From: Phorcus lineatus
Taxonomy: Eukaryota > Mollusca > Gastropoda > Trochida > Trochidae
Length of the DNA: 64,000 bases
NCBI GenBank assembly: GCA_921293015.1
Contig: OV121098.1
Coordinates: 17,942,161-18,006,160, forward strand
Direction of reading: 5' to 3'
Shown: one piece after another, positions 26,380 to 55,560 of the stretch
How the letters are laid out: each line of letters begins with the position of its first letter
Numbering within the stretch: the first letter of the stretch is position 1
Notes under the pieces: model-generated
What the model was told of the DNA's origin: nothing
The model's database searches: none
What the model saw: only the letters and a program-made list of their open reading frames with translations
Position numbers and translations under genes: made by a program

Positions 26380-26860
26380 TTACTGACAGTTAATCGCCTT
26401 AAAGAGCGTGGTCACCTCGCACACAAGTTTGGACGAGAATTCTGATAATTTGGAACATATTAAGCTGAATTGAAATTGACATGAATGACAGAATTGTTTA
26501 TTGTGCTGCACGTTTGAAACAGTGTCAGTGGCACGATCTCGGCGAACGTCAACATTGACAGTACACCCCGCATCAGCTGGCCGGTTGATCATTTCACTGA
26601 TTTCACGATGCTGTGTTTCAGAAATTTGTGAAAAGTTATTTATGCTTTGTAAATTCTTATGGCCACTGATTTGCATAATTTGATTTGGCGGAATGTTATT
26701 GTCAGACAAAGTTTGGACCGTGTATTTCCTGGCTGAGTGATTGGACAACCGTTTGGAATCTAACTTCGCATTGGACGCCATGCGTTTCATAATTGTTTTG
26801 ATCACGTTACCTTGGTCATGTGACCGAGTGAAAATAGTTCCGACATCAGTGCGCGTGATG
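26380..26860 (-). pseudogene. Crypton-type tyrosine recombinase C-terminus, nucleophile Tyr replaced by Phe
   Basis: C-terminal catalytic part of a tyrosine recombinase of the Crypton/DUF3504 type. The frame shows LSNHSARKYTVQTL, with the HxxR pair, followed by IPPNQIMQISGHKNLQSINN, with the conserved GH. Counting nine residues on from that His gives the nucleophile position (as in XerD GH...IY). The codon there, + strand 26632-26634, encodes Phe instead of Tyr. After a Cys-containing tail the frame stops at 26380. Upstream it runs open towards 26860 with no credible ATG and meets the MITE at 26865, so the N-terminal part is missing. It is either decayed Crypton DNA or an exon of a domesticated gene; the Phe favours loss of recombination. 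Confidence 0.75.
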
Positions 26861-26864
26861 TTAT

Positions 26865-27280
26865 AATGTGTAATAACATTGTAGATTTATTAAACAGCGA
26901 TATCTTCAACGGGAGAGTAATAAATAGAGAATACTAAACGATGTCCCGTTTAATAACATATTTATGAAACGAGTGTGTGGTTTGGTATTCAACGAGCGAA
27001 AGCGAGTTAGATACCGATACCATTCACGAGTTTCATAAAAATGTAATTATACGGGACTGAGTTTAGTATTTTATTTATTACTCGCTGAATTATAGCAAAG
27101 AAAAATCATGAAAATCGCCGGGATAGCCATTGTCGCTGCGCCGCTCACATTGTGACGTCATGCTTGACGATTGTGACGTCATGTGACGTCAATTGACACG
27201 CGATGTTATTACACAATGTGTAATAACTTTGTAGATTTATTAAACGGCGGTATCTTCAACGGGAGAGTAATAATCTCACA
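26865..27280 (-). mobile_element. MITE, tandem partial dimer (about 350-bp period)
   Basis: The segment 'taataacattgtagatttat' with 'taaacagcgatatcttcaac' occurs at 26871 and again, slightly changed, at 27221, a period of 350 bp. Between them is a palindromic core including gagcgaaagcgagtt. It is homologous in opposite orientation to 36462-37167, which has the same period. Three perfect TGACGTCA sites lie at 27153, 27174 and 27184. No coding capacity. Confidence 0.7.
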
Positions 27281-31613: not shown

Positions 31614-32250
31614 CTTTACCGTGTGTATGCAGGCTTACACTTCTTTACCGTGTGTATGCAGGCTTACACTTCTTTACCGTGTGTATGCAAGCTTACACTT
31701 CTTTACCGTGTATATGCAGCCTTACACTTCTTTACCGTGTGTATGCAGGCTTACGCTTCTTTACCGTGTATATGCAAGCTTACACTTCTTTACCGTGCAT
31801 ATGCAAGCTTACACTTCTTTACCGTGTGTATGCAGGCTTACACTTCTTTACCGTGTATATGCAAGCTTACACTTCGTTACCGTGTGTATGCAGGCTTACA
31901 CTTCTTTACCGTGTATATGCAAGCTTACACTTCTTTACCGTGTGTATGCAAGCTTACACTTCTTTACCGTGTCTATGCAAGCTTACACTTCTTTACCGTG
32001 TATATGCAGGCTTACACTTCTTTACCGTGTATATGCAAGCTTACACTTCTTTACCGTGTGTATGCAGGCTTACACTTCTTTACCGTGTATATGCAAGCTT
32101 ACACTTCTTTACCGTGTGTATGCAGGCTTACACTTCTTTACCGTGTATATGCAAGCTTACACTTCTTTACCGTGTGTATGCAGGCTTACACTTCTTTACC
32201 GTGTATGTGCAGGCTTACATTTCTTTACCGTGTAAATGCAAGATTTCACT
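31614..32250 (+). repeat. 29-bp minisatellite, about 22 units, open in all three forward frames
   Basis: The unit is about 'ttacacttctttaccgtgtg' plus 'tatgcaggc' (29 bp), varying at a few positions (gtgtatatgcaagc, gtgcatatgcaagc). Because 29 leaves remainder 2 on division by 3, a frame visits all three phases in turn. The unit has no stop in any phase, so three long overlapping frames of 245, 225 and 210 codons appear. They are properties of the array, not evidence of a gene. The last unit decays at about 32250. Confidence 0.95.
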
Positions 32251-32689
32251 TCTATACAACGCCCATTTTCCAATGGCAAAGTGAAAACATATCGAGATAG
32301 ACTCTACCCATTTTCTACCTTGCCCTCATCGATATCAAAACCTGTGAAACAAGCAGACACATCTATCACTAGTTACTCCCTTAAATCCTGCAAAACAAAC
32401 AAGATAGTGGATTTGCCGTTTCCATTCGAAACCTACGCCCAGTTCACTGAGCGAAACTTAACACCATACGTCTGCCGGATTGTTTGCAGTTTTCTAAAAA
32501 CACGATAATCTGAAATTTTAATACTAACGCATCATCGGTATTCCTAAAGTAATGCTGAATTAAAAGAATATAAATAAAATGAATTATCTCACGCTTCGTT
32601 AATTAATCAAACAGTAATTCGAGCACAATGATTGGTATCAAGTGTGTGTATCTAATTGTTTACGATTCTTGTTAATTTATGATAGGTCT

Positions 32690-34405: not shown

Positions 34406-37400
34406 GCATTTGTATTGCGCAGTATCCACGCCGTAAAGGTATGCTCAAAGCGCATGGTCTCATAGTATGTTACTGAGGTCATTTTTTAAGTGCACTGGTT
34501 AAAAAAATGTGTTTTTAGGTTTGATTTGACGCACTCGAGAGATTGATTAATTTTGAGGGCTCCAGGTAGTGAGTTCCAAAGAATAGCAGATGAAGCTGCA
34601 AAAGATCTACACCCAAAAGTTTTTAGTTTGGTTGCCGGTACATGTTGATTGGAACGTTCTAGATGGGCAGTATGGGATAGTCAGGTCACTCAAATATGCA
34701 GGCCCAAGCCGTGAACAGCTTGGTAAATGAGTGAGAGAATTTTAAAATTGATTCGCCCTTGAATGCGGAGCCAATGAAGGGAGTTGAGCACAGGTGTTAT
34801 ATGTGCCTTTATGCTTGTCCGTGTGACCAGTCTGGCAGCATAGTTCTGGATTTGCTGCAAACGTTTAATTTGTTGGTTGGTGACTCCGTAAAGCAAGCTG
34901 TTGCATTAATCAATCCGGGAGAATATCAAGGATCTCACAAGAGAAGTGGTGGCATCTCTGGTCAGTAAATATCTGATGACGCTGATGTAAGATCTAACTC
35001 ATTTGCTTTAGGATATGGATTTCGTAGCGTAACCGAATTTTGTACGTTCGTTTAAAACTATTTTAATTGTTTAAAATAGATTGGTTACACTTGTTTTATC
35101 AACGAGAGATAACTAATTTCATAAGAAAACTTCCTACAGTGCCTTTAGAATAAACTTATGCCATTTTATTAAACTTTTATTATGAAACTATCAACAAAAA
35201 AACCCTGTTCATTTGGTGTTGAAAATTGTATAATGCCATTTTAAGAACATAATATAAAGATAAGCATGTAAAAAGGAGCACGAGTCTGTATGGCAAGGTA
35301 TTGTGCGAACACTATTTCGGACATTGATAGAACTGAATTACACTAGATAAGTAATTCGAAATAAGGTCATTTTTCATCTAAGATATTAGAGTAAGTTTCT
35401 TGATATGTTTACTTTTTGAAGATACACACTTAAATATGTTTTAAATTCTAAATCATTTACATGAGATCCGTTCATCTCTATTGTGAAGACTTTATTAGCT
35501 AGAGAATACATTGTTTGAGTTTTCGTTGGATCAAAATTACTTATCATCCGAATACGATTTACGATTTATGATATCTGATATCTGTATACACTCATGTGCT
35601 AATGGCAAATAATCAACTTTTGATGCGGTCTCCGATATCATTAATTATGAAAAGAATAGCAGCAGCTCTAAGAGCGCCTGTCATATATCTGATGATTTAC
35701 CAACTTAGATTGCTTTTCTAATTATTTAAGCAGACTATGTATGCACATATTCAATAGCTAACCAATATGATATAATCTTACTTTCATACTTTGAAAAAAT
35801 AATTATGTCATAGAAAGTACATTATAGAAAATAATGACTTCATTTAGTTTATAAAACCTTTAATAATTTTGTGAGTTTTTTCCTTTAATGTTAACATCTT
35901 GATCGGATCAATGATACAGTTTTAAGTTTGGTTGCCATAATTTATGATATTCCTAAATTAAATCATGTCAGTGGAAAAGTGGAAGTTGTAACAGCGTATT
36001 GTCATTTGTTCTCTGTTTTAGGTAATTTCTTACCAATTTCATTCTTATTTCAAATTTGTTACTGTCATTAAGCTTAACTAAATAATCAGATCATGCATTT
36101 CTTTCAGCTAGTTATTTCATTTCTTAATTTCCAATCCAGTCATTATCTTTATTTCAACGCTTGTTTGGTTGTTTGGAATCAGAAATTAATATGCTTTATA
36201 AGTCAAAAGGTAACATTATTCATCCATTTGGAACCCTTTCTCTGCATTATTTGAACTAATCGTATTACACAAATCAAAAAGTAGTGTCACCAAGCCAGTA
36301 TTACCTCCTGAAGATTGCTAAATTACATATGAATAGACTTTAACAGTCAATTTACGTATACGTTATTCAATACTTAAAGGTCACATGCCTATTGTACAAA
36401 TGCAGTACAAATATAAAAAGGAAACTTATAGTGAGAGTTAAAGAAGAGTACTTAATGTTCTTTATTACTCGCCCGTGTAAGATACCGCAGTGTAATATTT
36501 ATACGGCGATATTAAACTAGTGTAATACCGCTGCACGTATGAAGTCATAATATTGTGTGGTTGTGACGTCATAATGTTGGCACCGCCGTCAATGGCGGCC
36601 AAGTCGCGGAAATGCTTCGTTCAGTACACTTCATGCTTGATTACTGAGGTCAAGTAATAAACAGAATACTAAACTTCCTTCAATTTAATACTATTTCTAT
36701 TAAACTCGTTAATGATTAGGTATTAAACTCGCTTTCGCTCGTTTTATACTTAATCATTAACTCGTTTAATGAAAATAGTATTAAATGGAAGGTCGTTTAG
36801 TATCCTCTATTTATTACTCGCCCGTGTAAGATACCGCAGTGTAATATTTATACGGCGATATTAAACTAGTGTAATACCGCTCCCGTATGACGTCATAATA
36901 CTGTGTGGTTGTGACGTCACAATCTTGGCACCGTCGTCTCAATGGCGGCTTAGTCGCGGAAATGCTTCGTTCAGTACACTTTCGGTAAAAATGCTTGATT
37001 ACTGAGGTCAAGTAATAAACAGAATACTAAACTTCCTTCCATTTAATACTATCTTTATTAAACTCGTTAAAGATTGGTATCAAACTCGCTTTCGCTCGTT
37101 TTATACTTAATCATTAACTCGTTTAATAAAAATAGTATTAAATGGAAGGTCGTTTAGTATCCTCTATTTCCGATTCATATTTTTGTTAAAGAATAACTAA
37201 AATTGTGGATACGTCTTTTGAATATACCGTCTTATGGATATCCACGGCAATGTTACGCAATGATGAGTTTGTATGATAGGAGAAGAAAGACGAATTGGGA
37301 GTGAAACATTCGGGAGTAATTAAATACCATTGGATATTGGGATATAATTTTTTGTTAATAATGTCACACAAAGCCTGAAAGATATCTTCAAGAATGGGCT

Positions 37401-40400
37401 ACGTCACTATCGCTTTCAAGCAAATTACATTTTTACAGAGAGTATTATTTGAGTTCATTAGTTTAAAACTGATTATTGGTTTCTTTACGATAAATTTTGA
37501 TAAAATAGGTAGTATTTATGTAAATCTGTGAATGTATGATATACTAGTATGTGACATGAACATGTATGAGAATGTTATCCTTGTTAAGATGTTTTGACAT
37601 GATAAATGCTTTTTTTACCTTTGTACCATAATTGCACTTTAGGCCATATTTAAGTATTGAATAAAATATTCAGTCAATTTACAGAAGAAAAAAACGTCAC
37701 TTGGTACCCTACTTGCTCACAACAGTTTGTTTATGGAGTGATGAACTTCGTCACTTGGTACATTTCTTCTCGCAACATATAGCACCTGTATCTTTTTCTC
37801 CATTTTCTCTGAGCTTAGCACTTGGTACCTTTTGATTATCTCATTATCTCATTAACTAATTCAGATATGAATTCCAAAAATGCTGAAATGATCATACAGA
37901 TTCCACTTGTGTCAAAAAGTGAACCCACGATAATTTTTTGTTGAATTAAATGCATTTTCAAGAGATTGCCAGTTAGAGCGAAGTATTGAAATACTGCAAG
38001 TAGATACATGTACCTGCTCTTTTGCCTTTGCCTTCTTTGTCAAACTACCCATAAAACAGTAGTTGCACATTCTGTCAAAAAAGCGAAGCTGTAGAGTCTC
38101 GTCAACGTCGGCAGAAGAGGTCGGGCCTGTAATGAAGCCATAAGAAGTTAATTCAAGAGCTGGATAAAAGCTTTGTGTTCAAAGACGTACTCTTTCAGCT
38201 AGTCTCAAGCATTCCTATGTTGAAGCGTAGGGTTCCTGGTCATATTAAGTAAGAAAAATTTAACTTTACTAAGGTTTCGATGATTATTCCCTTGTGATAA
38301 CATTTGGTTCGCTGGTCTGACAAATTATTCTAAGTCTCCTTTGAGATCTTACACTCACATAAAAACTCTTATCTGGTTATACTCGGGAGAAAATCCTCAT
38401 GAGACGTTATTCCTAGAAAAAAGTTATTAGAATTATAATAAGAATTAGGCGCTATAGAAATTCATAATAAAAGATATGTAACACTATGTGTTCAAGACAT
38501 TATCACTTGTGTACGTGCAAAGTGCGGCGATACACTTGATTACCGACCTCAAAGGAGCACTTGATTAGCTGCTGGTACCGTCATGGCTGGCGCTGTTGCT
38601 GAGGGTGTGGGTTCAAATCCCGCAAGGTTCTCGAATTTTTACTATTGCAGATAAACTCTCGTGCAAAAGAAACGTCCCTAAAATATTTTTAGTTGTCATT
38701 TTCTATTCAAAGATCATGAACATAGCTCAGTGTCAGGAACAGGTCGCCTAACATCGGTTACATCAGTTTGACAAGAAGAACATGCCGAGCAGAGACAGCG
38801 AGCAATCGGGATGCTTCAACTCGGCGCTACGTTCAGCCATGTCACTAAATCATGAATTGCTTGAAGAGAACAAGTGGTAGCTGGTGACGCGTTACAGACA
38901 GAGTGGCAGGACAGCAGACAGGTCCAAGTCCAAGAGCGGGTGAGCGAAGTTGACCATCCCAAATGAAGACGGGCATTTACGGGTGCTTCAACTGAGGAAC
39001 GGATTCCTTAGGTGACGTCATCTGCTGCACAGCAAGAACAATCCAAGCAGCAGATGGACAGTAACAAAGCATCCGAGGTTATGGACCGCACAGAGGAAGA
39101 CGTTAAATTAGACGAATTAAACAAATTAGACTAAACAAATTAGACGTCGAGGACTGCTTTGGACAAGAACCGTTCATTATGTAGTAAATGTTGTGATTGA
39201 CAATTGTTTTCCTATTTGTAAATTAATGGTTGAAAACGCACGGGGACGTTTCTTTTACACGTGAGTTTATTTTGATCCCATTTATATCAATATCATATAC
39301 CCATAGGGAGACTTAGAAACAAAAGTATCTGTGAAAAAAATAGGCGTAACTGAGCCGAGACTGAGCAACAAAAGTAAATGTTGGGAAACTGAGCAACTTG
39401 ACTGATTGGCAACTTGGCAGATTGAGCAAAAAGAGGAACTTTTGGGAGCCTTGGCAACGAAAATACCTGTGCCAAACCTGAGGATGAGATTGAACAACAT
39501 ACGAGGGGAAGTCAATAAGTTAATGGAAGTGAGTATTGAAACAACCCTAAAGACATCATCGATGATTATAACGATCAGCCATCTGATGAGAGTTTACAGA
39601 CATAAGCAACGCTTCCCGATCCTTTACCTGAGATTTAAAACCTGGTACCCTCCCCTAATCATGGAAAGTTCTAAAACTGAGCAACATATGACCAATGTGT
39701 ATGGGAAAGAGACCCCTCAATATTCCACTGTTGCAAAATGGTCAGCTGAGTTTAAGCGATGTACGATGACCCAAGGTCAGGAAGGCCTGTTGAAGCCATT
39801 ACAATTGATATGGTTGCAAGGATCCAGAGTTTCATCATATCCGATCGCAGTATTTGGATGAGATATTTTCAGAGTGTGGCATTTCTCATGGAAGTGATTG
39901 CACATGGCCATGATGTCTGCAAAAGTTTTAATCCACAAGAAATTTAAATGCAGAAGATCGACGCCAGAGAGTTGAATCAAGTTGAGAGTTCTTGGGCATT
40001 TACAATGCTGATCCCATCTGATTTCATGGGATGACACGAAGCAAGGATCCATGCAATGGGGGCATAACCACCCTCCTGCGCACAAGAGGTTCAGAACTCA
40101 GCTGTCAAGATCATCGCCACCATTTTCGGGATTCAAGGGGCGTGATACTTATAGACCAACTACAAAAACTAGAGCCTACCATGATCACTTGGTGAAGCAA
40201 TTGAGAGTGGCATGTTGACTGCTCGAATTTTCAACAATGTGGCTTTGAACAACTTAACCACAGATCCCCTATTCCACCAAATTGGCGATGATGATGAACT
40301 TACGGCAAACAATAAGGGGTGATTGAATGATTAGTCAGAAGACTTCTACCACAAGGGCATAGACACTCTCAAAGACAAATGGGCAAAGTGCATCGAGATA

Positions 40401-43400
40401 AAGGGAGAACATATTGAAAAATCAATATCACAACCATTGGCTTTTGTTTTATATCCACTTCTATGAACTTATTGACTTTCCCTCCTAAGAACCTGTAGAT
40501 AGACTGACAAAATTACATATGGGGGACATGGCAATCAAAGTACTTGTTGGGAGACTGAGCAACAAAATCACTTTTTGGGAGACTAAGCAACAAACGTAAA
40601 TGTGAGGGGCCACGCAACTAAAACATCAATGGGGGGATTGAGCAACTATAGCACCTACACAGAGCCTGAACAGCTGAAGTGCACATGAGGAGATTGACTA
40701 ACAATTGGACCTATGAAAAGACTGAGAATATAAAATATCATGTTTGGAGACTGAGAAATGTACCCGTTTGGCCACTGAGCAACAAAAGTATATGTAGGTG
40801 GATTGAGCAACTAGTAAATAGAGCAAACACTTAGCAACAAGTTAACTTTAGGGAGACTGAGCAACAAACGTACCTTTGGGGTGACTGAGAAACAAACATA
40901 CTATTGGGATGACTGAGCGACTAACGTACCTTTGGGATGACTGAGCCACTAAAGTACCTTTGGGATGACTGAACAACAAAAGTACCTTTGGGATGACTGA
41001 GAAACAAAAGTACCTTTAGGATGACTGAGCAACAAAAGTAACTTTGGGATGACTGGGCAACAAAATTACCCTTGGGTTGACTGAACAACCAAAGTACCTG
41101 TGGGAAGACTGAGCAACGAAATACTGGTAGGGAGTTTGAGAAACAAGCTACCTGTAGGAGACTAGGCAACAGATGTATCCGTGGAAAACTGAGCAACATA
41201 CGTATATATTTGAAGAGACTTAACAACAAAAAGGGCATATAGGAAGAGAAGCTGAGCAACCCAAGTACCTGTAAAGAGACTGATGAGGAGACCTAGAGAG
41301 ACAGTCACCATAACACCGAGAGCACTGGCCCACACATAGGAGATTCCGTAAAACATGTCCAGCCCCTCGCTGAAATAGAACTATGACAATTTTAACATTA
41401 GTATAGCTCAATCCTTATGGAAATACGTTTGGAAGAAAACACATTTGAAATTCGATAACTTGTCGAGAATGCTACTGGCTATATTACTTTTAGTTTCCTC
41501 TATAATTCCAAGTAGCGATATAAGAACTGAAAGTGCATGAAAGCGGTAACCAGGAACGTTATAAACACAAGTACATGTTATTACAGACGATCACAATCAT
41601 TGCGGAAGAAACTCCTAGCAAGGGATATTGAGAGCTAGAATATTTGCATATAGTACTTCTGTGCATTCACAATTCAGTTCTGCACCGCAATATTTTAAAA
41701 TCATCAACATAAGTTTACCGTGTGATGTGAGAGTAATTAACCCTCAACTGGTATTTCGGGGCCTTTGAGGCCAGGACTGACTTGCAGTCGATCATTGAAA
41801 CGTTTTGGTAATTTGATAATCTAGTAACCATAATGTATTCATCACATGTCAACTTACTAATAACACACAGTCTAAGACATGAAAGCGGGCCTTTGAGGTC
41901 TGGTTGAATTGTTTTTCATCGTGACATAGTGTCGTGAGATGGAGAGCAATGAAGTGTTGCCTAGTGAAACAATCGAAACTGACTGAATCTAGAACCTCCT
42001 ACATAACACAAACGTGTGCGTGTAAAATTGTACCTTGTAGTGTTACCAAAACAGCTTTCATTCCAGAGAGAAATACGTGCATACAATGATTCCTCATTTT
42101 AATATCTCCTAGTTCTGTCGTCCTCCATATGGCTGTTTTGGTGTTCCTGGGCGTGTAACGCATGTTTATAAGGATACTCTGATCTGATGACCAGTAAATA
42201 ACTTTCATCTGACTAGTGTGTCCTTTTCAATGGCCTAAGAAATTATGAAGCCCAAAGCTGTTTGACGATACAGGACTTTAATTCTATAGGAGGAGTTTTA
42301 GCGTTTCTTACCTATCAATACAAACCCACAGTGCTTTCTTAACACTGTATGGACAATTTGTCATATTTGTAAGACCTGGAAATAATGGTTAGTCTCCCCG
42401 GGCACGAAGCCCAGTTCTTTGGAAATAGACTCCCGCCGGGGTGGGGAATAAAGCTATCTATATGGTTTGACATTCTGACTGTCAACAGGATAAAGCTAAC
42501 GTATTCAATCCATAAGAGTGTTCGTTAAAGCGTGTACATACAGTCGGCTTGTGTCTACAGGATGTGGGGTGATGGTGGTGTTGCACGTGCTGTTACAGCC
42601 GCATGTTGATGTGGGAAGATGGAAATCGAGCGGCTTGTTGAGGTACGTGCCAATACTGAGCCACATGGATACAGCAAACCCCAGCACTCCGCCTCCTATA
42701 GCCCCCTGTGCGAAATCAAGTGGAATGCGAGTTACTTATTTTGGAAGGTATTTCATATCTCACACAATGTAGGTTGATTAATTGTTTTGAGTATTTTCAC
42801 ATGATTATCTTATAAGCAACAAGGCTATAGAAAACCATAATGCATCCTGCATTTTTTATATAAAAAAGCTCACCACAAGCAAATGATATTAAACTAATAA
42901 AAGAATACAAATATTTGTTTCATTCGAGTTCTACAGATATTTTCTTTGCCACCTAGAAAACAGCAACTATACCAGTAAGCTTGAGCAATTTTACACTTAA
43001 CTGAAAACTGACATACGTCATTATGCATTATGAAAAATGACCTCAGAAAGAGGAACATTCTAAAAGTAATAATTGAATAATTTGACGAACTAGAAAAAGA
43101 AATACATGTAGAGGAAATAAGTTTTCTCCATGATTTTTGTTCTTTACGTTCTTCTGGAGAGATCGAAGCCCATGGATTAAAGATTTATAAAAGGACGTTT
43201 TTCAATTAATAACATAAACATTGAATAAGGGAACCATTACCTGTTTGCCTAAACTTACAAGTGACGGAAACTTTAAAAATCTTGTGCACCATTTCATTAC
43301 TAATTCACTATAGAATCATCAGCATGTGTAACACAGGGTATAGCAGGAGTCGTGAGAATCAAACTAGTTTCATACCGTGGAGATGTATTAGTATCAAAGC

Positions 43401-46400
43401 CATGCATTTTTATAAAAAATACTGTGTCATTTGAAAGTCAAATGTGTTTGATTGAAACATATTTTATTCATGGTGAAACGAATTGGAAACAAGTTTCCCA
43501 GCTGTAGGAAGAAAAATAGCAAAACAAGAAAGGATAAATGTAAAACTAATGTCTTACACAAATCGCATGGTCGCATTGATATAAAATTGAACCAGATCAT
43601 ATATATCAACATTTCGAAGTGAGATTAACATCTTTGCAACTTTTAAATTATATTTTCGATATGGTATTCCCATTTCCTGTTTTGGCATGATATCACACCA
43701 AAATGTTTATGTGTCTCAACATTTCTTATTTCTTAGGTAATCAGATGATTGGATAATTAGCCCTTTATTCAAGAGTATTCACTGCATCAAACAAACACCT
43801 AGGTTATCATACAGGCTCATGGTTATTGCTTAAAGAGCGTCAACCTATTACGTCAACTTGCCCTGTTCTGCCTGCCATCTTAAACCAGATAAGGTAATTT
43901 AGTTAAAACAATAATCTCAAACTTACAAGATTTCCAGGTGTTTACTACCAGCATATCCAGTTCCCTATCAACCTCTTGTTATTCTGTAAGTCTAGTGATA
44001 CGTGTATATCCGCAGGACAAGGGACAAACGCATAAGCAAAACAATTCGATAATCAGGGGATGTTAAGATATGTGAAAAAGAGGCCCTTTTCATCTTTTGT
44101 GTAATACAAGACGTTTCAAAAAGATACTCATACCTTCATCAGGTATGAGGTAGGGAATGACACAATGTGATACAAAAACAAATGGAATTAATGTTTGAAT
44201 CATATATCTCTAATCTGTGAGTTTGGTTTCGCTAAGTACATTGTTATCTTCCCTTGATAATTATGAACAAATGTAACATTTTATTATTAGGGATACACTA
44301 TCTATTCATCTTTCGAACACTGCAATGTGTTTTAGACCTTACCAGTTCAGTATAGAAACGATAAACAGGATTAAGTTGTAATTTGTGATCGAAAACCGGA
44401 CAGTGGCGCGCGCCAATGACTCAACCGTAATTTTGAAAGTTTATCTTCAGCAGTCACAGAGACAAATATTGGTTGGTAGTGATTGGTAGGTGATTTAACT
44501 AATATTCATGTAAACTGGACGGAGAATTTCAACCTCCGAAATCTATATGGCTGTTTTTGTATTATCATTGAAGACAAGAAATTTTTCATTTCGGGCACTT
44601 AGGTAAAAAGATGCAAGTTTTTGAAAGATATTTGAAATTATGAAAGGGCAGATTGTATTTTGACTGTTATTTAAGCCACATGAAAGTTTGAATTAATAGC
44701 AAATACTTTTCCGCAGCGAATAACATCATGGACACACTCACTGGTGTATTGTGGCTGAATTTCGTAAATACTTGCACATCATGCATATCGACGGGAACAA
44801 TTATAAATATCCCCCCCTTTTAGTTTGATATAACATCACAGTGTCTTATTAGTAGTATCAAACATCTGTTTTAGCAAAACTAATTTTACCTGATGTTCAC
44901 TTTTAATGTGATAATATATAAATATAATTATATAAAATACGAAGCAAATATTGTACTTAGCAGAGTAAGTTAACGATCACCCACTACGTCTGACACTGCT
45001 CATACTACATAACGAACTGTTACGGCTACACTTATCCGTTTGCTGACTGTACCTAGAGTGTGAGAGGAATGCCTCAATACCAAAATGCAGCTTACCACCC
45101 AGTTGGGGCTGGTGAAGCACGTGCCCAAAATGAAGATGCCAACAAGGGGTGAACCAGCAGCACCGTTGAAGGTCAGAGAAGCCTGAACGCACGAGAGAGA
45201 TTAATGTCACGTGACTAAATCAAACACACAATGGATATGAACAGCGCATTTATACGGCATTAGCAATGAACTAAAGTTGCTTTTTGACCATGTCAGGAAA
45301 TGTTTGAACATGAATTTATCAATATTATTCATCTAAAGGTGCAAAATGTAATTTAGATTGTGGTGAAACTTCACATCGATGAAATAAATTACTAAGAGGA
45401 AGAGAAATATCAATGAAAAACATATATATTCCATCAAATTCATTTATAATCAAAGTTTTTTTTATTCATGGAAGTATTTTCTACATCCAATTTTTTTCCC
45501 AAAAGGTCTCCCACCCCCCACCAATTGTCATCTTTTCATCCAAATATTTCAAATTTCAAAAGCTTTGTAGGATGCTTGCTGTCATTAGGGTTCACTTATA
45601 TATAAACTTTATAACCTTCGCCAACGAAGGCCGTAATAATTTTAAGCAAATTAGGTTCATTTTATTCTGCTTTGCCTTTTAGATGGTTTTAGAGAGTGGT
45701 TTGCAAAATTCTCAAACGTTTCCGTTTCCTTTGTATACGAGTTCAATGGTGTTTTTCACTGTGATCATTCATTTGTTGGCCACGTTCATTCCAGAACATG
45801 GTATTTGCCACACCTTCGTTTAGGAAACGCATCTACAAATAGGAATCACCGTTCGTTAGACGTTCTATCAGGAGGACACGTACAACCTTGAAGCACTATT
45901 TCCACCCGGATATTTAATCATATGAAGATTGTACAAACATGGAGTTCTATTTCCCGAAAAACCTTCAATCAAGAAGTATGCACACACCTGAAGGACTGTT
46001 CCTCCCAGACGTTCCACGAGGAAGGCGACACCAATCCCCAGACATCCGTAAAGTACAGCTGCCAAAACAAGGACACCACAGTACAGTTGATACACAAAGG
46101 CAGTCATAGATCACAGCTTTTGCTTTTACAAATTAGCATATATCAACAACAAAACAAAATAAGCAGCGGAAAAACACGTAGCACCCCTAAGAAGGCTGTA
46201 CGGCTTCAACAAATATTAAATTAATTATCAAAAAATGTCAAATGCAAAATTCAAAACTAAGGAGGTATTATGAACACTCAAAAGTGTTTCCGTATTTGGC
46301 TTTCCACAAATATAAGTTCATTCATGTAAATTTCACTATACAAGGAGGTACCTTATTCGTTACATGCAAATAAAACATACCAACCTATGGTATTTGTCAC

Positions 46401-48036
46401 CGATATTTAAGATTGTCTATTGAGAAAAAAACCTTCTAATCTTCAAAATTGTTAAAAAAACTAACTCCGCAGTTGTATATTTCATGTGACACTCTTTCCT
46501 ATATCGTAGTAATAACATATATACATTTTTTCACAGTGAGGATGACCATGTATGAAATGCGTATCAACTAACGCTTAAGACTACAGCAAAAAAATCACGT
46601 AAAGACGATACGACCCCCGTAATGATAATTACAATACTAACATCAACGTCTTTCTAACATTGCTTCGACTTTGTCTTCTAAATCAGTATGACGACGGATT
46701 TCCATGTCGCCACAAATACCAATCCAGTCATTATTCGACGAAATTTCAACGTTGATTAATCGTCATATGGCCTGTTTGGATTCTTTCAAACAACATAGCT
46801 TTAACTAAATAAAGTTACTTCAACTGCAAGAACAATATTTTAACACCTAACATGAACTTTAACACACAATATCCTTATTAGCTGAAGCAAATTAAATTTT
46901 CTACGTTTTACAAATGAACAAAACAACAAAAGTCTGTACACTTCTGCACAAAGTGTAGATCATTAATGATCTAGCAACATATACATGTATTCGTAGCTAA
47001 TTATATAAACAGGTATTAAGTAAATGTCATCAGGTCAACATTAAAACAAGCATCAACGTTAATATTTCACCTAATATCTTGTTTAAAACCGTTGCTTTTC
47101 GATCAGAAAGGTTGGAGAAACGCATCTTCAGAAAGTCCTCCCATGTAATAGCTGCGAGCGAGTTGAGCATTGAAGACACGGAACTGCAACAGTTTATGCT
47201 GATTGACCAGCAGGCAGCATCGCATGGCTTTTTTAAATAATATTTAAACTTAAAGGGATGTCCTCATTGTAAATTCATTAAATCAAGAATCTTTAGGGGT
47301 GCAAGTTAATTGATATTTCCTTTATATTTATATATATCATTATGTATGTGCTTGCGAGGTAATATGCAGACAATATTTATACGTAACTGAAGGAACGTGA
47401 TAGGGGTTAATACTTTAGACCAGACAGATTTAGCTGTTGTGGAGTAGGTGAAAGAAGCTTAGGAAGAGGGAATCGGATGTAGAAACTGAAGGAAAAGGGG
47501 GCGAGGGATTTAAAGAATAAAATGTGAAGTCTAGGGGGAAAATTTAGGTTAGGGAAATGTGGTAGACGATTTAGAGGATGTGATTTAATGTAATTTGAAT
47601 GAGCGTGGTGGAGATCTGGATCCTCATGACAATAGAGACAAACATCTAAGTTTAGGAGTTTTAGAAGTAAGATTAATAGAAGGGACACCTGGATTTACGT
47701 TTTATAAAAGTTTAGAATGGAATATTAGATAAGTTTGGAGAAGTTTGAGAAGAGTTTGGTGAAAGGGAGGAGGCTAGGGGGCGCTGAAGTTGAAGGCCAC
47801 AGGTAGGTTATGGGTAAATCGATATGCGTTTGGTAGCAGGTTCAAGAAATATATACCTGATATAGGAGTTGGGAGAAAGGTTGTGAATAAGAAAAAGAGT
47901 TTGAAATATGAAGTGTGAAATATTCCAGTGTGAAAAGAACTTCTCACCTAAGGGCTCCACTTAATAGGCATGCGACAAAGAGACCTGGAAGTCCTTGCAG
48001 ATGGCCAAGAAGGTCCAGCACAAAGATGGGAAGAAG
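33417..48036 (-). CDS. SLC5-family sodium:solute symporter gene, C-terminal eight exons
   Basis: Plasma-membrane Na+-coupled transporter of the solute:sodium symporter fold, closest in motifs to SLC5A5/A6/A8/A12 (iodide, multivitamin, monocarboxylate). Exons in transcription order: 48036-47948, 47183-47071, 46058-45988, 45182-45096, 42705-42542, 41369-41269, 38126-38014 and 33482-33417. All have AG and GT borders, and the seven junction phases (2,1,0,0,2,1,0) agree exactly. The sum is 804 nt: 267 codons and a TAA. Diagnostic motifs in order are GLPGLFVACLLSGALS, SSMLNSLAAITWEDF, NGAAGSPLVGIFILG, a CNST glycosylation-type loop, and FYGISYVWASALGV followed by LISLFTG. SLC5 proteins are about 600 residues, so the first 330 or so are missing. 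No 5' exon was seen up to 64000, so the preceding intron exceeds 16 kb or the gene is truncated. The substrate cannot be read from sequence. Confidence 0.93.
34366..34900 (-). pseudogene. LINE pol C-terminus with 3' UTR and ATT tail
   Basis: Minus strand: 34896-34690 encodes LLYGVTNQQIKRLQQIQNYA, ARLVTRTS, ITPVLNSLHWL and FKILSLIYQA, the conserved C-terminal block of CR1/L2-type ORF2. A 3' UTR follows, then 'gcgctttgagcatacct' and 'ggcgtggatactgcgcaat', ending in an (ATT)n run at about 34369-34404. It is an old 5'-truncated insertion, antisense-free (same strand) within the last SLC5 intron. The frames over the (TAA)n run are shadows. Confidence 0.85.
34905..36455. other. SLC5 intron, nothing else recognised
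   Basis: AT-rich intron sequence with no exon-like frame. Confidence 0.5.
36462..37167 (+). mobile_element. Two tandem copies of a palindromic MITE (349-bp period)
   Basis: 'tttattactcgcccgtgtaa' begins at 36461 and again at 36810. Each copy contains ggtattaaactcgctttcgc-type sequence in the middle of a hairpin: 'cttccttccatttaatacta' on one side, 'tagtattaaatggaaggtcg' on the other (best preserved at 37023-37167). TGACGTCA sites lie at 36564, 36888 and 36912. It is homologous in reverse orientation to 26865-27280. It sits in the last SLC5 intron. Confidence 0.8.
38014..38126 (-). CDS. SLC5 exon, cytoplasmic tail
   Basis: 113 nt, acceptor 'ggcttcattacag', donor 'GCAG|GTACATGT'. It encodes GPTSSADVDETLQLRFFDR and MCNYCFMGSLTKKAKAKEQ, completing the Gly codon begun in the previous exon. 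SLC5 proteins have a similar TGP-type start to the post-TM tail. Confidence 0.9.
38654..39267 (+). mobile_element. Deleted Tc1-like element, 614 bp
   Basis: TA dinucleotides flank it (38652-38653 and 39268-39269). The left end reads 'aactctcgtgcaaaagaaac' then 'gtccc'; the right end on the minus strand reads 'aactcacgtgtaaaagaaac' then 'gtcccc'. Inside (38770-39130) are remains of the transposase N-terminal helix-turn-helix: MPSRDSEQSG, ALRSAMSLNHELLEE, RYRQSGRTADRS (family: L..RY...GRT.DRPRSG), then GHLRVLQLRNGF. The DDE domain is deleted. It lies in the SLC5 intron next to the 28-bp minisatellite. Confidence 0.85.
39290..41268 (-). repeat. 28-bp minisatellite derived from an SLC5 exon/intron junction
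   Basis: Units read on the plus strand are like 'gactgagcaacaaaagtacc' plus 'tttgggat' (about 28 bp). They are clearest at 40850-41120 and weaker outwards, and they resume at 39290-39500 beyond the mariner insertion. On the minus (gene) strand each unit is 'CAGTC..CCAAAG|GTACTTTTG' with 'TTGCTCAG'. It matches the real 5' splice site at the end of exon 41269-41369, 'CAGTCTCTTTACAG|GTACTT' and 'GGGTTGCTCAG', on both sides of the junction. The array therefore starts exactly at the splice donor. Confidence 0.85.
39502..40485 (+). mobile_element. Mariner element, 984 bp, inactive
   Basis: The inverted ends are 'cgaggggaagtcaataagtt' at left and, on the minus strand, 'ggagggaaagtcaataagtt' at right. 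TA flanks both (39500-39501 and 40486-40487). Broken frames show the mariner N-terminal signature YGKETPQYSTVAKWSAEFK, then DDPRSGRPVEAIT in another frame. The catalytic region is degraded. It splits the 28-bp minisatellite, so it is younger than the array. A second copy of the same family is at 50906-51174 and 57042-57165. Confidence 0.9.
41269..41369 (-). CDS. SLC5 exon, last transmembrane helix
   Basis: 101 nt, acceptor 'ttctatttcag', donor 'ACAG|GTACTTGG'. It encodes EGLDMFYGISYVWASALGV and MVTVSLGLLISLFTG, matching the FY.ISY.....G..T...G..IS..TG block of SLC5A5/A8. The donor side is duplicated in the adjoining minisatellite. Confidence 0.93.
42542..42705 (-). CDS. SLC5 exon, TM helix plus extracellular loop
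   Basis: 164 nt, acceptor 'gatttcgcacag', donor 'GACT|GTATGT'. It encodes GAIGGGVLGFAVSMWLSIGT, then PTSTCGCNSTCNTTITPHPV. SLC5A8-group proteins have a similar GxxxG..SxW.xIG helix followed by a Cys/Asn-rich loop; two NxT/S sequons (NST, NTT) are present here. The last codon is split CT|C with the next exon. Confidence 0.93.
44389..44680 (+). repeat. Dispersed repeat, copy B
   Basis: Diverged copy of 19673-19990 in the same orientation. It starts 'gatcgaaaaccggacagtgg' and contains 'catgtaaactggacg' and 'gggcacttaggta'. It sits in an SLC5 intron. Confidence 0.6.
45096..45182 (-). CDS. SLC5 exon
   Basis: 87 nt, phase 0 at both ends, donor 'GGTG|GTAAGC'. It encodes ASLTFNGAAGSPLVGIFILG and TCFTSPNWV, the conserved G.xxGPLLG.F.LG helix of SLC5. 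Confidence 0.92.
45988..46058 (-). CDS. SLC5 exon
   Basis: 71 nt, acceptor 'gtccttgttttggcag', donor 'TCAG|GTGTGTGC'. It encodes (A)VLYGCLGIGVAFLVERLGG and TVLQ, corresponding to the YG...(L/I)..A.L....G..LQ segment of SLC5A5. The first Ala is completed from the preceding exon. Confidence 0.9.
47071..47183 (-). CDS. SLC5 exon
   Basis: 113 nt, acceptor 'aaactgttgcag', donor 'TTAG|GTGAAA'. It encodes SVSSMLNSLAAITWEDFLK and MRFSNLSDRKATVLNKIL. SLC5 members read (S)TVSSSLNSLAAVT.ED at this point, so the match is strong. Confidence 0.93.
47948..48036 (-). CDS. SLC5 exon, most 5' one found
   Basis: 89 nt, acceptor 'actgtcctgcag', donor 'TTAG|GTGAGA'. It encodes LLPIFVLDLLGHLQ and GLPGLFVACLLSGAL(S). 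GLPGLFVAC..SG.LS is a hallmark of the family. It begins in phase 0; the exon before it was not found in the window. Confidence 0.93.
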
Positions 48037-48529
48037 CTGCAGGACAGTTTTTAAGTAAGGGATAACGTAGGCTGTTCCTGATTAGGCTGTTCCCGACTAG
48101 GCGGGCTTCTTTTTTTAACAAAAGCCGTAAATAATTGAGTTATTTGTCTTATAATCTGATTGAAGATATCGTAAAGACATAATATTGACATTTAGCTAAT
48201 CTAAATAGCTCTAGCAGGTTTTTTAACAGCACCCTGCTCGTGATTTACGCCCATTCACCATGTCATGCACGTGAGCTGTATTTACTTTATGTCTCGTGAA
48301 GAATAAAGGGTTCCTACTGATAATCAACAGTGTTATCATGGTGCTTCAAAGTCTATTAGGTAAGACTGTTGATAAAAGTGAGGTGTTCAGGGATTGAAAC
48401 TGTGCATGTTTACTTCAATTAAGGAATAATTATCATCAAAAACGTGATATTTTATTATGATTATTATGATAAAATTTCGAATAGAAATGGCCTATGTTTC
48501 TAGTATATTCCTGTGGAATACCTAGGTAC

Positions 48530-48770
48530 TCTAGCTTTACTACAAATGTTAAGGACATAGATAAAGCCCCAGGACTTCATAGATAAAAAAACCTCAAGAC
48601 TTTAAACAAACTATTTCTCCCAATTATCCCGAAAATGCAGTAATTAACGCATTAAATTCCTCACTATCAAGAAAAGACACTATATTCTCTTCTCTGGGCC
48701 AACAACTATTCATACTGTGTTCCGTTAAACGTTTCTTGGATGATTCCTAAGAATGTCGTGACAATTTTTC
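48530..48770 (+). pseudogene. Small LINE pol fragment
   Basis: KDIDKAPGLHR at about 48557, then NKLFLPII in broken frames, resembles the K(A)PG.D(G) block ahead of the RT. Short, decayed and of uncertain orientation to other LINE pieces. Confidence 0.4.
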
Positions 48771-49128
48771 ATTAATCTAAAATAGTCCAGGTCTGACGGA
48801 AATTTAGATTTGTTAATTTGATTTATTTTGACATATACTTTGAAATAATATATTTGTTACATGTTGATTTTGAAGAATATTTACTTTTGGTTAAAATAGA
48901 TTTCAGAAATTATGATTTTTTTAAAAATTTAGCCTTATAAGTAACAAGTTTGATGAAATAATGACCTACAAAGATAGCTTGATTTGGTGAAAAGTTTGAA
49001 TTGAAATTTATTTTACTTATGATGTTTTTACTTTGACAGATTTTTCAATGAAGTTAAATGTTGATTTTGAGAAATTAGACAAGTATTGAGTTGTGAAATG
49101 TTAGCTTTGAAAGATATTTTGATGTAGT

Positions 49129-50671
49129 ATGTATGTTTTATTTCGTAAAGGGGCCACAGGCCCATGATACAGATATTGTACAGAAGCTTCTTGCATTACA
49201 GAGAGCTTTAAAATGACAAAAATATCTCAAGTGTTTGCGTACAGGCAAATCTTACATGATAAATATAATACATAGTTATCGTAATGGGATATCTTTGAAG
49301 TAATTATGTCTTTGCTTTGTAGCTAGGAATAAAAATTTGCAAAGATTTCTTAAGATTATGCCTTTTGACAAGAATAGGTGTCGCATTTTATCTGAGTTGG
49401 ATATTTCCAAAAATATGTTGGAATAAGTTTGCTTCTTAGATTATAATAAAAAGGGCAATTTAAACAAAAATGATATTCAGATTCAATGTTTGGGACGATA
49501 CAATATGGACAAAATCTCTCTGATCTAGGACTATTACACCTCCTGTCCGAATCAATTAGTAAATTATGATTTGAACAGCAAAACTGAATAAAATTGATAA
49601 CATAAACTTTAACAGTAACTGTTTCATGTAAGCTAAGGTAACTAAACTGATTATTTAGAGTCCGATAGAAATCCAACTTCGAAAAAGCCTCCAAATCTAC
49701 ATTCCAACTCTGCTGCATTTTATCGGTACACCTTTCCTTGAACTGAGAGATAAATAATGCGCCTTGCTGTAGCCAAACTTCGCCAAAACCATATCTAAAT
49801 AATAATGATTTTACATTAAAAGCCCAACAGGATTTGCCATTCTCTGCCTTTTGATATTGAAAATTATATGTGTGCTTCAAAATAATATTATCCGTTTGCG
49901 AGAGCAACCTTAACCAAAACTTGATTATCTTAACAAAGTGAACAACTGACATTGGATCTACCTAGAATACCACGTGCTAACAACATTGGGCAATAGGCAG
50001 AATTTATAATTAGTATGAAAAATATGCTAAGCTACTTCGATGGGGAGTAAAGAGAATTTGCTCATTTTAGAAATAAAGAATTGCAATACCTCCCAGGCCT
50101 GTTGAGCTAGAGTTTTCTGAGTTAAGAACCAAGATCCTGACGATGATAGTTGAACGCCTAGATATTTATAACATCCAACCACTTCCATCTTGGAGCCATT
50201 CAGCCCAAACTTTTCGCATGAGCGTAATTTCCCTCCGTTACGAAAGACCATAACCTTACTTTTGGCAATGTTGATTGTTAATTTCCATTATCACAAAATT
50301 CGGACAACCTTCTTTGCAAACCAACAATTCTTATATTCATAACTGCAATATCGTCAGCTAACAAAAGGATGAAAATCAAACAACTGATAATATATTCATT
50401 ATTGATACTTTTATTCAGAAATATTTATCGCAGAAGCGTGGTAGACTTTACTGTGCCTCTATTGATTTAAAGGCTGCATTCAATTCAGTTTATCGTAAAG
50501 CTTTATGATGCAAGCTTTGGAATGGTGGTGCAAAGGTAAAGTTTTTCGAGTTATTAGAAATATCTATCAGTCTTTTCAGTCAAATATATGTCTTCCTGAT
50601 GGTTATTCCAGCTTCTTCCATTGTAGTGCAGGAATACGACAAGGTTGTCAAATGTCCCCGATACTGTATTC
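49129..50671 (-). mobile_element. LINE insertion with 5' inversion and 14-bp target duplication
   Basis: The 3' part runs on the minus strand. FILLLADDIAVM with the ADD active site is at about 50370-50330. VMVFRNGGKL and YKYLGVQLSSSG are at 50251-50027. FRYGFGEVWLQQG and a Cys-rich end (CPYC....E..YHFCLNCPFY) are at 49952-49356. A 3' UTR then ends 'acgaaataaaacatacatac'. The segment that should precede the active site lies inverted, on the plus strand at about 50382-50671: YLSQKRGRLYCASIDLKAAF, then AGIRQGCQMSPILYSI. TATTTTGATGTAGT flanks the whole at 49115-49128 and 50672-50685. It is dead: only part of pol is present, with stops. Confidence 0.85.
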
Positions 50672-50905
50672 TATTTTGATGTAGTGAAAGGTTGTCTTTG
50701 AGGAAATGTTAATGTCATTGAGTTTGATACTTCGACTTTGTTAAAGTACTTTAAAACAAAATTAATTGTATGAAATTTAAGTTGGTAATAAATAAGGTAC
50801 TTAACTAGACAGGAAAGCTCTTTGATATCATACAACACTTTCCTACATAATGAAGTATGTTTTGTGTTTGTGTTCTTGATAATTTTATCTATTACGTGAT
50901 ATTTA

Positions 50906-51174
50906 CGAGTGGAAGTCAATAAGTTCATAGAAATGAGACATCATTATATCGTTGATGTTCTTACTGACAAAGGCCATCTGACGAAAGTTTTTCGGACATA
51001 AATGATCCTTCCCGATCATCTACTTGCGATTTACAGCCTGTTGAACACAGGTACCCTCCTGTAACCATGGGAAGTTCTAAAACTGAGCATCGTGCGGTTA
51101 TTAAGTTTCTCACGAAGGAAGGAGCGATTGGGTCGCAGCACCTTTGACGATGACTCACTGTCAGAAAAGACTGA
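50906..51174 (+). mobile_element. Mariner copy, 5' half (split by the fold-back element)
   Basis: The left end 'cgagtggaagtcaataagtt' follows TA at 50904-50905. It is collinear with 39502-39775, including 'atgggaagttctaaaactga'. It breaks off at the fold-back transposon at 51175; the rest is at 57042-57165. Confidence 0.85.
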
Positions 51175-51239
51175 GGCAGTGTGAAGTTGGTTACTTATTC
51201 CTTATTCGATATTCGACTTTTCTATTTACTTATTCGAAA

Positions 51240-53760
51240 AAGACTTCTGAGAGTATCAAGGAATGTTTGCACCACCTTGTAGGTATACTCAAATAAAAGA
51301 TCATTCAATTATCTATCCAATGGGGTATGCAACGTTATAATACATAGGGTCATTCATACCGTAAAGGCACAAAAAACGTTAGTATATAACCAAACTGATA
51401 AACAACAACCTCTGAGAGTACCAAGAGATATATGCACCACCTTGTTGGTATACTCAAATGAAAGAGAATTCAATTACCTATCCAATAATGTATCGTACGG
51501 CATAATACATAGAGGCTGTCGTACCGTAAAGTCATAAAAAAGCGTTACCATGGACAGAAAATGCTAAACAACAACTTCTGAGAGTATTAAGGAATATTTG
51601 CACCACCTTGTGCGTAGACTTGTATTAAAGATAATTTAATGACCTACCCACAGATGTATATTACATTATAATACATAGAGGCGTTCGTACCGTTAAGTAA
51701 CAAAAAGCGGTATTGTATGCCAACAACATTACATTTTTTTTATTCTTGAATGAACAACTTCTGAAAGTATCAAGGGACATTTGCACCACCTTGTATGTAG
51801 ACTTAAATGAAAGATAAGCTAATTACCTACCAAATGATATACACTACATCATAATACATAGAGGCGTTCGTACCGTATAGTAACAAAAAGCGTTACTCTA
51901 TGCCCACATTTAATTGTTTTAAATTCTTGTTCGAACAACAACTTCTGAGAGTATAAAAGAATATTTGCACCACATTGTACGTATACTTAAATGAAAGATA
52001 ATACAATTACCTATCCAATGATTTATACTACGTGATAATACATGGAGGCGGTCGTACTGTAAAGTAAAAAAAGCGTAAGTATGTATCTCTTATTTCATTT
52101 TTTTAATTCTTGTTCGAAAAACAACTTCTGAGAGTATCAAAGAATATTTGCACCACCTTGTACGTATACTTAAATGAAAGATAATACAATTACCTATCCA
52201 ATGATATATACAACGTCATAATACATAGAGGCGGTCGTACCGTAAAGGCACAAAAAGCGTCACTGTATAAGCAAAATGATATACAGCAACGTCTGAGTGT
52301 ATCAAGGAATATTAGCACCACCTTGTGCGTATACTCAATTGAAAGATTATTTCATTACCTATCCAATGATATATACAACGTCATAATACATAGAGGTGGT
52401 CGTACCGTAAGGGCACAAAAAGCGTCACCATATTAGCAAAATGATAAACAGCAACGTCTGAGAGTATCAAGTAATATTTGCACCACCTTGTACGTATTCT
52501 CAAATGAAGGATAATTCAATTACCTACCCAATGATACAACGTCATAATACATAGAGGCGGTCGTACCGTAAAGTCCAGGTATGCGTTTCTAAGTATCCCT
52601 TATTTCATTTTTGTTATTCATTATCGAACAACAACTTCTGAGAGTATCAAGGAATATCTGCACCACCATGTACGTATACTCACATGAAAGATTATACAAT
52701 TACCTATCCAATGATATATCTTACGTCATAATACATAGAGGCGGTCGTACCGTAAAGGCACAAAAAGCATTACTATATAACAAAAACATAAACAACAACT
52801 TCTGTGAATATCAAGGAATATTTGCACCACCTTGTGTGTATGCTCAAATGAAAGATAATTTAATTACCTATCCAATGACGTATATCACGTGAAAATACAT
52901 AGAGGTGATCGTACCGTAAAGTCATAAAAAAGCGTTACCATTGACAGAAAATGTTATATAACAACTTCTGAGATTATCAAGGAATATTTGCACCACCTTG
53001 TACGTATACTCAAGTAAAAGATAATTTAATTACCTATCCAATAGGGTATACAACGTTATAATACATAGAGGCTGTCGTACCGTAAAGGCACAAAAAGCGT
53101 TACTATATAACAAAATCATAAACAACAACTCCTGAGAGTATCAAGGAATATTTGCACCACCTTGTACGTATACTAAAATGGAAGATAACTCAATTACCTA
53201 TCCAATGTGGTATGTTACGTCATAATACATAGAGGTGTTTATACAGTAAATTCAAAAATTGCATTACTATGTATCTCTTCTTTCATTTTTGTTATTCTTG
53301 TTCGAACAACAATTTCTGAGAGGATGAAAGAATATTTACACCACCTTGTTTGTATACTCAAATAAAAGATGATTCAATTACCTATCCAGTGAGGGATAAT
53401 ATAACACGTTTTAATACATTGAGTTGTTCGTACCGTAATGGCACAAACATATGTACTATATAACAACGTGATAAACAATAACTTCTGAGAGTATCAAGGG
53501 ATATTTTCATCACCTTGTACGTTTACTCAAATGAAATATATTTTAATTACCTATCCATTGAGGTTGACTACGTTATAGTACATAGGCGTTCGTACTTAAA
53601 AGTAACAAAAAGCGGTACTATATAACCAAACTTATAAATAACATCTTCTGAGAGAATCAAGGAATTTTCACACCTTGTACGTATACTTACATGAAAGATA
53701 ATTCATTCACCTGTTCAATGAGGTATATTACGTCATAATACAAAGAGGCGTGTAGTGTCG
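51240..53760 (+). repeat. Left arm of the fold-back element, about 15 tandem units
   Basis: Each unit begins about 'acttctgagagtatcaagga' and continues 'atatttgcaccaccttgtac', 'caattacctatccaatga', 'cataatacatagaggcg' and 'cgtaccgtaaag', with a period of about 165-190 bp. Some units carry an extra 'tattcttgttcgaacaac'. Frames within are shadows. Confidence 0.9.
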
Positions 53761-54204
53761 ACAAGAAGCAGAGCCATGTATCCCATTACAGCCAATAACT
53801 ACAGCCTCTTGACAGAATGTGCACAGTCCCTTTAATAAATTCTACCATCAGGACAAAGGTACTTGGCAATTAGCCCATGCAGGGGTCACAATGGCAAGAT
53901 GTTATGTCACAAAATTACTGGGAACATCATATCCCAGTGCATTTCTTAAAATATAGTGACATATACTCAGAACAATAAGTTAAGCACCACTTAATTCAAT
54001 TGAGTATATATTTTCAACAAGTTGACGAAAAGTATTTCGAAGATGTTTTATGGCATAAACAACTCCACATATATTGATGCAGCCAATCACATATGTTTTT
54101 GAAACTCGTAGTGAAACGTGTAGTTGGAGAAATCAACATTTTAGTGGCATCAATATCGTCTGTTATCTCGAACAAATGATTGCATATGAGTTTGAGATTC
54201 ATTT

Positions 54205-54665
54205 ATGGCAAGGATGGCCGAATTCGTGTTTGGCGACAAGCTAACACCCATTTCGCACCAAGACATGTCCCATCAACCTATCAGTGTGGTGGTGGCTCTA
54301 TGATATGAGGTTGTGTCTCCTCCGGTTGTAAACCGACCTTGTGACAGTTCCAGGTACACTCAATGCTCAGAAATATCGAGATAACATCCTTCTCCATGTG
54401 GTAATTCCACATTTCGGGAAGCCATATCAATGCTACCGTGGCCTGCTTGCAGTCCCGACTTGAACCCGATAGAACATCTATGGGATACTTTTGGTCGCCG
54501 TATACGTAGAAGAGATCCTCCTGTTCAAACTGTGGCAGGGTTGGATGCACCACTGCATCTGGAGTGGCAGCAGATTCTTCAACAAGTCATACAGCGACAG
54601 ACACTTACGATGTCGAGGAGGGTCAATCAAGTCATCAATGCACAAGGGTCATACATTCACTATTG
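54205..54665 (+). pseudogene. Tc1-like transposase remnant inside the fold-back element
   Basis: DGRIRVWR at about 54207, then GGGSM in one frame, and LPWPACSPDLNPIEHLWDTF followed by GRRIRRRDPPVQ at 54433-54530. The last is the catalytic D(34)D/E end of Tc1 transposases, including the PIEHLWD glutamate. The frame runs on to a stop at 54664. Stops upstream and missing ends mark it dead. It differs from the copy at 1540-2008. Confidence 0.85.
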
Positions 54666-54845
54666 ATTCAACACTGGTTTACATTTTCTTAAGGCCGCAA
54701 TGTTACCTTTTAAGGAATTTTATTCTGTTTTATCGACCGATATAACAGCTTTGGCAATAGTTGTTTTCATTGCACAATTGCTGAAAAACGCACTGATTGG
54801 AATTCAGTATACAGAGTCAGTAAAATGAAAAAAATTCACTGACCG

Positions 54846-55560
54846 CCTGAAGAACCCAAGATGGAAACATGGGCCACCAGAAGCACAAATCCAAGATGCA
54901 CACATAGGATCACCAAAAGCACCAAAGATGTACACTAAGGACCACCAGATACAAGCAACCAAAATGCACCCATGGGCCACCGGAATCACCCAAGATGCAT
55001 ACGGATGGCCAACAGATACAAGCCCCCATTATGCACACTTTGAATCATCAAAAGCTCCCAAGATGGACATGTGACCATCAGCTACAAACACACAAAAAAC
55101 ACACATGGCACAACCAGTTACAGGCACCTAGATGCAAGCATTGGCCACCTGTAGCAACCATGATGCACACATGGGACCAAAAGTTACAATCACCAAGTAT
55201 GCACATATGGTACCGTGAAAAGCACCCAGGATGGACACAGGGGACCACCAGATGCGAGCATTAATTATGCATACATGGGCAATCAGAAGCGCCTAAGATT
55301 CCCACATTAAAATTCTCTATTACTACAGAATCTTGCATTGTATATTTATTATGCAATGCTATATAGAAGAAATATTGTAAAAACTTGTAATAATTTAATG
55401 ATGTGATCTACCAATGAATGTACTACAGGCCTGTGGCATTTTAAGTACGTAAATAAAGATTGATTGATTGACATTAAAATTCAAGTTATAAGCACACAAT
55501 ATGCATATATCGGACAATCAAAAGCACCGAATTCGAAGATCGACACATAGAACCTAGAGC
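54846..55560 (+). repeat. Degenerate minisatellite, about 31-36-bp unit
   Basis: The recurring core is 'caagatgcacacatgggcca' with 'ccagaagca' (variants aaaatgcaccc, aagatggaca). It is interrupted by the LINE tail at 55316-55470 and resumes at about 55490. Frames across it are shadows. Confidence 0.75.
55316..55470 (+). mobile_element. 5'-truncated LINE 3' end with 12-bp target duplication
   Basis: A 155-bp insert ending 'acgtaaataaagattgattg' then 'attg', a LINE tail with TGAT repeats. ACATTAAAATTC lies at 55304-55315 and 55471-55482. It interrupts the minisatellite, so it came later. Confidence 0.85.

Follow-up and report, generated by a model that had tools for sequence, protein, structure and literature searches.

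The closest described relatives of the locus presented here are repeats that carry, or sit at, splice sites. A minisatellite with multiple splice donors was reportedly described in the human IFI6 gene (6-16, G1P3) by Turri et al. in 1995, and Zhuo et al. in 2007 are said to have dealt with introns that come from tandem arrays. In IFI6, according to an excerpt of PMC4526556, two downstream repeat units serve as splice donors, giving three mRNA species. Among human paralogs, internal tandem repeats with minisatellite expansion at exon-intron boundaries have units of 30 bp on average and an average of 4 units, and they change the transcripts of recent paralogs (PMC2812944, in extract). In Drosophila, intron gain through tandem-duplicated proto-splice sites is recounted in an extract of PMC2891723. 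The subject of this account is a 64-kb stretch of contig OV121098.1 from the gastropod Phorcus lineatus (the window), in which a 28-bp minisatellite starts right at the donor of a coding exon in an SLC5A8/SMCT1-like transporter gene. Among repeats of this known kind it is a new member that is long, well preserved and, by its looks, old.

How, then, does this locus compare with those systems? As in IFI6, a likeness drawn from description and not from a comparison of unit sequences, the minisatellite units bear donor sites. Here, however, (i) the 28-nt unit extends 15 nt into the coding exon, (ii) two thirds of the unit boundaries are without AG|GT, and (iii) a stop codon lies ahead of the AG|GT decoys, which as donors are putative. 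With the human paralog repeats, as far as the extract describes them, the locus shares expansion of a minisatellite at an exon-intron boundary and a similar unit length, but it is old-looking, numbers about 35 units and is intronic except for its first unit. With proto-splice-site intron gain it shares the tandem duplication of an AG|GT-bearing sequence; in contrast to that process there is no sign of intron creation, and the exon is ordinary and conserved. In the literature collection searched, nothing came up that combines an intronic minisatellite, a splice site and tandem duplication, and nothing that combines recursive splicing, a ratchet and a tandem repeat.

The array and the end of the exon

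The elements at the junction, which lies on the minus strand, are as follows.

41269 to 41369, minus strand: coding exon of the SLC5A8/SMCT1-like gene, 101 nt long, entered in phase 2 and left in phase 1, with ISLFT|G at its end
41256 to 41283, minus strand: founder-like unit across the donor, made of exon -15 to -1 (41283-41269) and intron +1 to +13 (41268-41256)
40488 to 41268, minus strand: minisatellite, proximal part, with a homogeneous core at about 41121-40846 and more degenerate units on either side
39500 to 40487, plus strand: putative decayed mariner/Tc1-type insertion, bounded by TA on either side and carrying inverted terminal repeats and a weak Mos1-type helix-turn-helix match
39300 to 39499, minus strand: minisatellite, distal degenerate part

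From the donor the array extends to about 39300, and its head-to-tail units fall within the range of about 10-100 bp that defines a minisatellite. A wrap-around alignment, seeded with a consensus after the units had been inspected, resolves the array into 35 units, a part-row on the exon side and a fragment at the far end, 37 rows in all, with the unit consensus GTACTTTTGTTGCTCAGTCTCCCAACAG; a MAFFT alignment of the raw units was inspected and not used for counts. Tandem Repeats Finder reports 28 bp x 9.9 copies with a score of 361, covering the homogeneous core (40846-41121) only, plus a short row at 39390-39429. Of the interval given in the first-pass annotation, 39290..41369, about half (39500-40487) is the insertion, which had been missed. 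The inverted terminal repeats of this insertion are identical in 37 of 45 aligned columns. Its helix-turn-helix match to Mos1, at 16.8 bits, stays below the cut-off of 24.1, and with a transposase match of this strength the assignment to a decayed mariner/Tc1-type element is putative. When the insertion is removed in silico the unit sequence runs on across the site, as an irregular 40-nt row.

The intron side of the junction is simply an array unit, and the exon side is therefore the real test of whether the junction resembles the repeat. The last 15 bases of the exon agree with the seeded consensus at 12 positions, a match equalled by one of the 123,864 other 15-mers in the window, by none of its 417 other AG|GT sites and by 2 of the 864 synonymous encodings of ISLFT; with the AG left out, 10 of 13 bases match (P about 8e-5). 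An unseeded test used ungapped profiles built from the 21 of 35 units that are exactly 28 nt long, split by position into 6 young and 15 older units. Against the 15 older units the exon end matches at 11 of 15 positions and scores 15.2 bits, a value reached by none of the other 15-mers, by none of the AG|GT sites and by three of the encodings. All 21 units together likewise give 11/15, at 13.9 bits (1/123,864 15-mers, 0/417 AG|GT sites, 4/864 encodings). The homology ends at -15, where 12/15 matched positions give way to 5/14 and then 3/15 further upstream, such that the shared segment is 15 + 13 = 28 nt, exactly one period, and TCAG stands at both of its edges (-15 and +14). These figures support a resemblance of the coding side to the older units beyond what chance would be expected to yield. 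Unit-junction homology of the IFI6-like splice-donor kind is thus present, strong for the older units and weak for the youngest, and the similarity that the first-pass annotation saw on both sides of the junction holds to that extent.

The host gene and the direction of growth

Judged by its sequence, the host is a partial SLC5A8/SMCT1-like gene on the minus strand of the window. Upstream of the exon at the array it comprises the following.

47948 to 48036, minus strand: SLC5 exon, peptide LLPIFVLDLLGHLQGLPGLFVACLLSGAL (89 nt)
47071 to 47183, minus strand: SLC5 exon, peptide SVSSMLNSLAAITWEDFLKMRFSNLSDRKATVLNKIL (113 nt)
45096 to 45182, minus strand: probable SLC5 exon, peptide ASLTFNGAAGSPLVGIFILGTCFTSPNWV (87 nt; recognised by reading, no database match; frame continues into the next exon)
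42542 to 42705, minus strand: preceding SLC5 exon, peptide GAIGGGVLGFAVSMWLSIG...DTSR-L (164 nt; donor ACT|GTATGT)

The borders of all five exons were placed by eye. The exons follow one another in order and phase with AG/GT borders throughout, and the frame is open without a break across exons 1-2, and likewise across exons 3-5; an exon between 47071 and 45182 was not found. Read-through frames of 41000-55999 matched SMCT1 and NIS (SMCT1 at best E 4e-4 in one search and 1.2e-6 in another), and phmmer with the third read-through frame gave no match. No Pfam family (E up to 1) was found in the read-through frames, 37000-41400 included, which counts against the assignment. The exon at the array holds 33 full codons, with a single base ahead of them and the opening base of a glycine codon behind; it codes for EGLDMFYGISYVWASALGVMVTVSLGLLISLFT|G, and with its donor its 3' end reads TCAGTCTCTTTACAG|GTACTT. 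Four PDB sequences are listed for its peptide and all are SLC5 members (SMVT, NIS twice and SMCT1), each of them a weak match (E 0.02 to 0.072). The SLFTG at its end is a conserved SLC5 motif, represented in the four by SLLTG, SYLTG (twice) and SLSTG. The first-pass description of a 28-bp array directly after a phase-correct SLC5 exon is borne out.

The best explanation of the whole, and a probable one, is that the exon/intron junction of the SLC5A8-like gene gave rise to the minisatellite, which was then expanded, decayed, interrupted and partly rehomogenised. Slippage or unequal exchange, perhaps starting most readily between two TCAG copies that lie 28 nt apart, would have made a tandem copy of the 28-nt segment that they flank (15 exon and 13 intron bases), and further growth would have brought the number of units to about 35. 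Those at the outside would have decayed, a mariner-type element would have jumped into one unit, and part of the middle of the array would have been rehomogenised more recently. The first copy presumably retains its function, encoding ISLFT|G and serving as the predicted donor; the remaining copies would be donor-like remnants, for the most part neutral, and may act as low-level cryptic 5' splice sites. Growth from junction to array is the likelier direction because the end of the exon appears to be set by a conserved SLC5 protein motif and so need not derive from the array. The first-pass proposal that the array grew from the splice donor itself accordingly gains support from the coding-side match to the older units, with the direction a matter of likelihood.

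In a tree built on 28 columns from 35 rows, the junction together with 34 unit boundaries, the end branch of the junction measures 0.12, where the median is 0.17. When the junction and 20 units are ranked by their mean distance, it comes 11th of 21. The junction is therefore no outlier among the units, and its rank and branch neither prove nor refute that it is the founder. An outlying junction had been named by the first-pass annotation as a sign that would speak against its proposal; none was seen, but so poorly resolved a tree could hardly have given one.

Several observations weigh against an origin at the junction. The coding-side match is just 15 nt long, and the seed consensus was picked after the units had been viewed. 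Against the 6 youngest units the exon end matches at 9/15 positions and 4.1 bits, which is unremarkable given that 252 of the 123,864 15-mers, 14 of the 7224 before GT, 5 of the 417 AG|GT sites and 22 of the 864 encodings do as well, bits not being strictly comparable between profiles built from different sets of units. The tree is nearly unresolved, with one of its 32 inner branches well supported, and does not show direction. The evidence comes from one 64-kb window of one species, in one assembly. As the match is strong to the older units and unremarkable to the youngest, the junction is like the older form of the unit and not the recently amplified one.

Could the growth have run the other way, from array to exon? 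An intronic minisatellite might have reached the edge of the exon, with one unit replacing the original exon end and donor as an exonised repeat. The units have a pyrimidine-rich stretch ahead of AG|GT, so that one could act as an exon end, and the unit consensus read in the exon frame gives LSLPTG, near ISLFTG. This is nevertheless unlikely, since the exon is in frame with those preceding it and its end codes for a motif conserved in the solved SMVT, NIS and SMCT1, which the replacing unit would need to have recreated by chance. That the array just adjoins the exon, and that the coding-side likeness is an accident of AG|GT and pyrimidine bias, is less probable again: the short match, an AG to be expected at any exon end and the indifferent fit to the youngest units would agree with it, but no other AG|GT site in the window reaches the junction score with the all-unit or older-unit profile, only 2 to 4 of the synonymous encodings equal it, and the seeded match outlasts the removal of AG. 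Intron gain by tandem-duplicated proto-splice sites, a known route (PMC2891723 and PMC2812944, both in extract) with which the AG|GT kept in some units would agree, is the least probable of the three, no exon having been found beyond the far end of the array, where a scan of 15000-41268 with a motif for the tail of the transporter, which also yielded no tail exon, and the Pfam search of 37000-41400 came back empty, both being weak tests.

Donor copies and their predicted use

Growth from the junction would have left copies of the donor along the intron, and the positions that matter for their use are these.

41263 to 41271, minus strand: predicted true 5' splice site, CAG|GTACTT
41162 to 41164, minus strand: the stop that the reading frame would meet first on running past the true donor, 34 codons beyond the split Gly codon and upstream of the AG|GT decoys
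40868 to 40932, minus strand: two decoy donors AAG|GTACGT, with first intron bases at 40929 and 40873

AG|GT is retained at 12 of the 36 unit boundaries, and scanning the array directly yields 13 AG|GT, the true donor being counted in both figures. Exact GTACTT follows the true donor at five more sites (41097, 41013, 40985, 40957 and 40543), far from the 'dozens' of such decoys first reported. As a rough guide, a donor matrix gives the true donor 5.6 bits. Of the 7462 GT sites that the window contains, 376 score at least this much, the true donor among them; one, inside the exon at 41308, has 5.9. Four of the 96 other GTs of the array, insertion excluded, beat it, namely 40929 and 40873 (9.6 bits each), 41151 (6.7) and 41069 (5.7), as do 2 of the 59 GTs in the insertion.

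Would use of these copies alter the protein? The first AG|GT decoy, at 41151, lies beyond the stop at 41164-41162, and the nine GTs between the donor and this stop score at most 2.8 bits. Lying behind an in-frame stop, the AG|GT decoys would if used truncate the protein, and the predicted product is a foreign tail of 34 amino acids after the junction glycine followed by the stop, or else decay of the mRNA. The length-variable coding exons that the first-pass annotation had envisaged are thereby ruled out for the AG|GT decoys, and the consequence for splicing was overstated. Selection on the decoy donors was also considered, and no clear signal of it was seen. In 26 older units conservation is 0.67 at the AG|GT columns and 0.74 at the others, a value as low as which 20% of all four-column sets show, in a test made on the seeded alignment with 8 young units, the first unit and two part-rows omitted; this fits neutrality.

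A further prediction, to which only a slim chance is given, is that the intact units act as exons of zero length, ratchet-like AG|GT sites that would permit stepwise removal of the intron without change to the mRNA. It follows from the copied exon end resembling a 3' splice site and then a donor (TCTCTTTACAG|GTACTT). The share of pyrimidines over the 15 nt that precede AG, which averages 0.68 for the 13 AG|GT of the array (true donor included) versus 0.49 for 423 others, speaks for it, and the survival of AG|GT in a minority of units only weighs on it. If it were true, a unit joined by splicing to the true donor would restore that donor, and an array derived from a junction would be self-buffering.

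Within the window the array appears to be a single locus: BLAST with the array gave no match elsewhere in the 64 kb, and a profile of the unit finds 3 weak matches outside it (10.2-11.1 bits, uncalibrated) versus 29 inside. Two further minisatellites, of 29 bp, lie at 7349-8997 (57 copies) and 31614-32257 (22 copies), and the SLC5 array has no BLAST match to them. Arrays with units of 165-183 bp stand in opposite orientation at 51168-53750 and 55683-57048, their longest pair of arms being 830 nt, 97% complementary and 3.9 kb apart. On the minus strand at 60488-61012 there is a weak GIY-YIG match (17.6 bits, cut-off 22.6), near which frames at 61035-61250 and 63300-63998 look reverse transcriptase-like by eye and matched no Pfam family; this is perhaps a Penelope-type retroelement. 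A tyrosine-recombinase match above cut-off (PF00589, E 6.6e-07) at 26383-26886, minus strand, presumably marks an element that is perhaps of Crypton type.

The locus can be read as a fossil of how a minisatellite may start, from a short direct repeat that straddles a splice junction. The coding half of the founder unit would have been kept by selection on the protein, which is why a direction of growth can be argued at all. It is also a natural test of how a gene tolerates its own donor being copied many times over downstream of the functional site.

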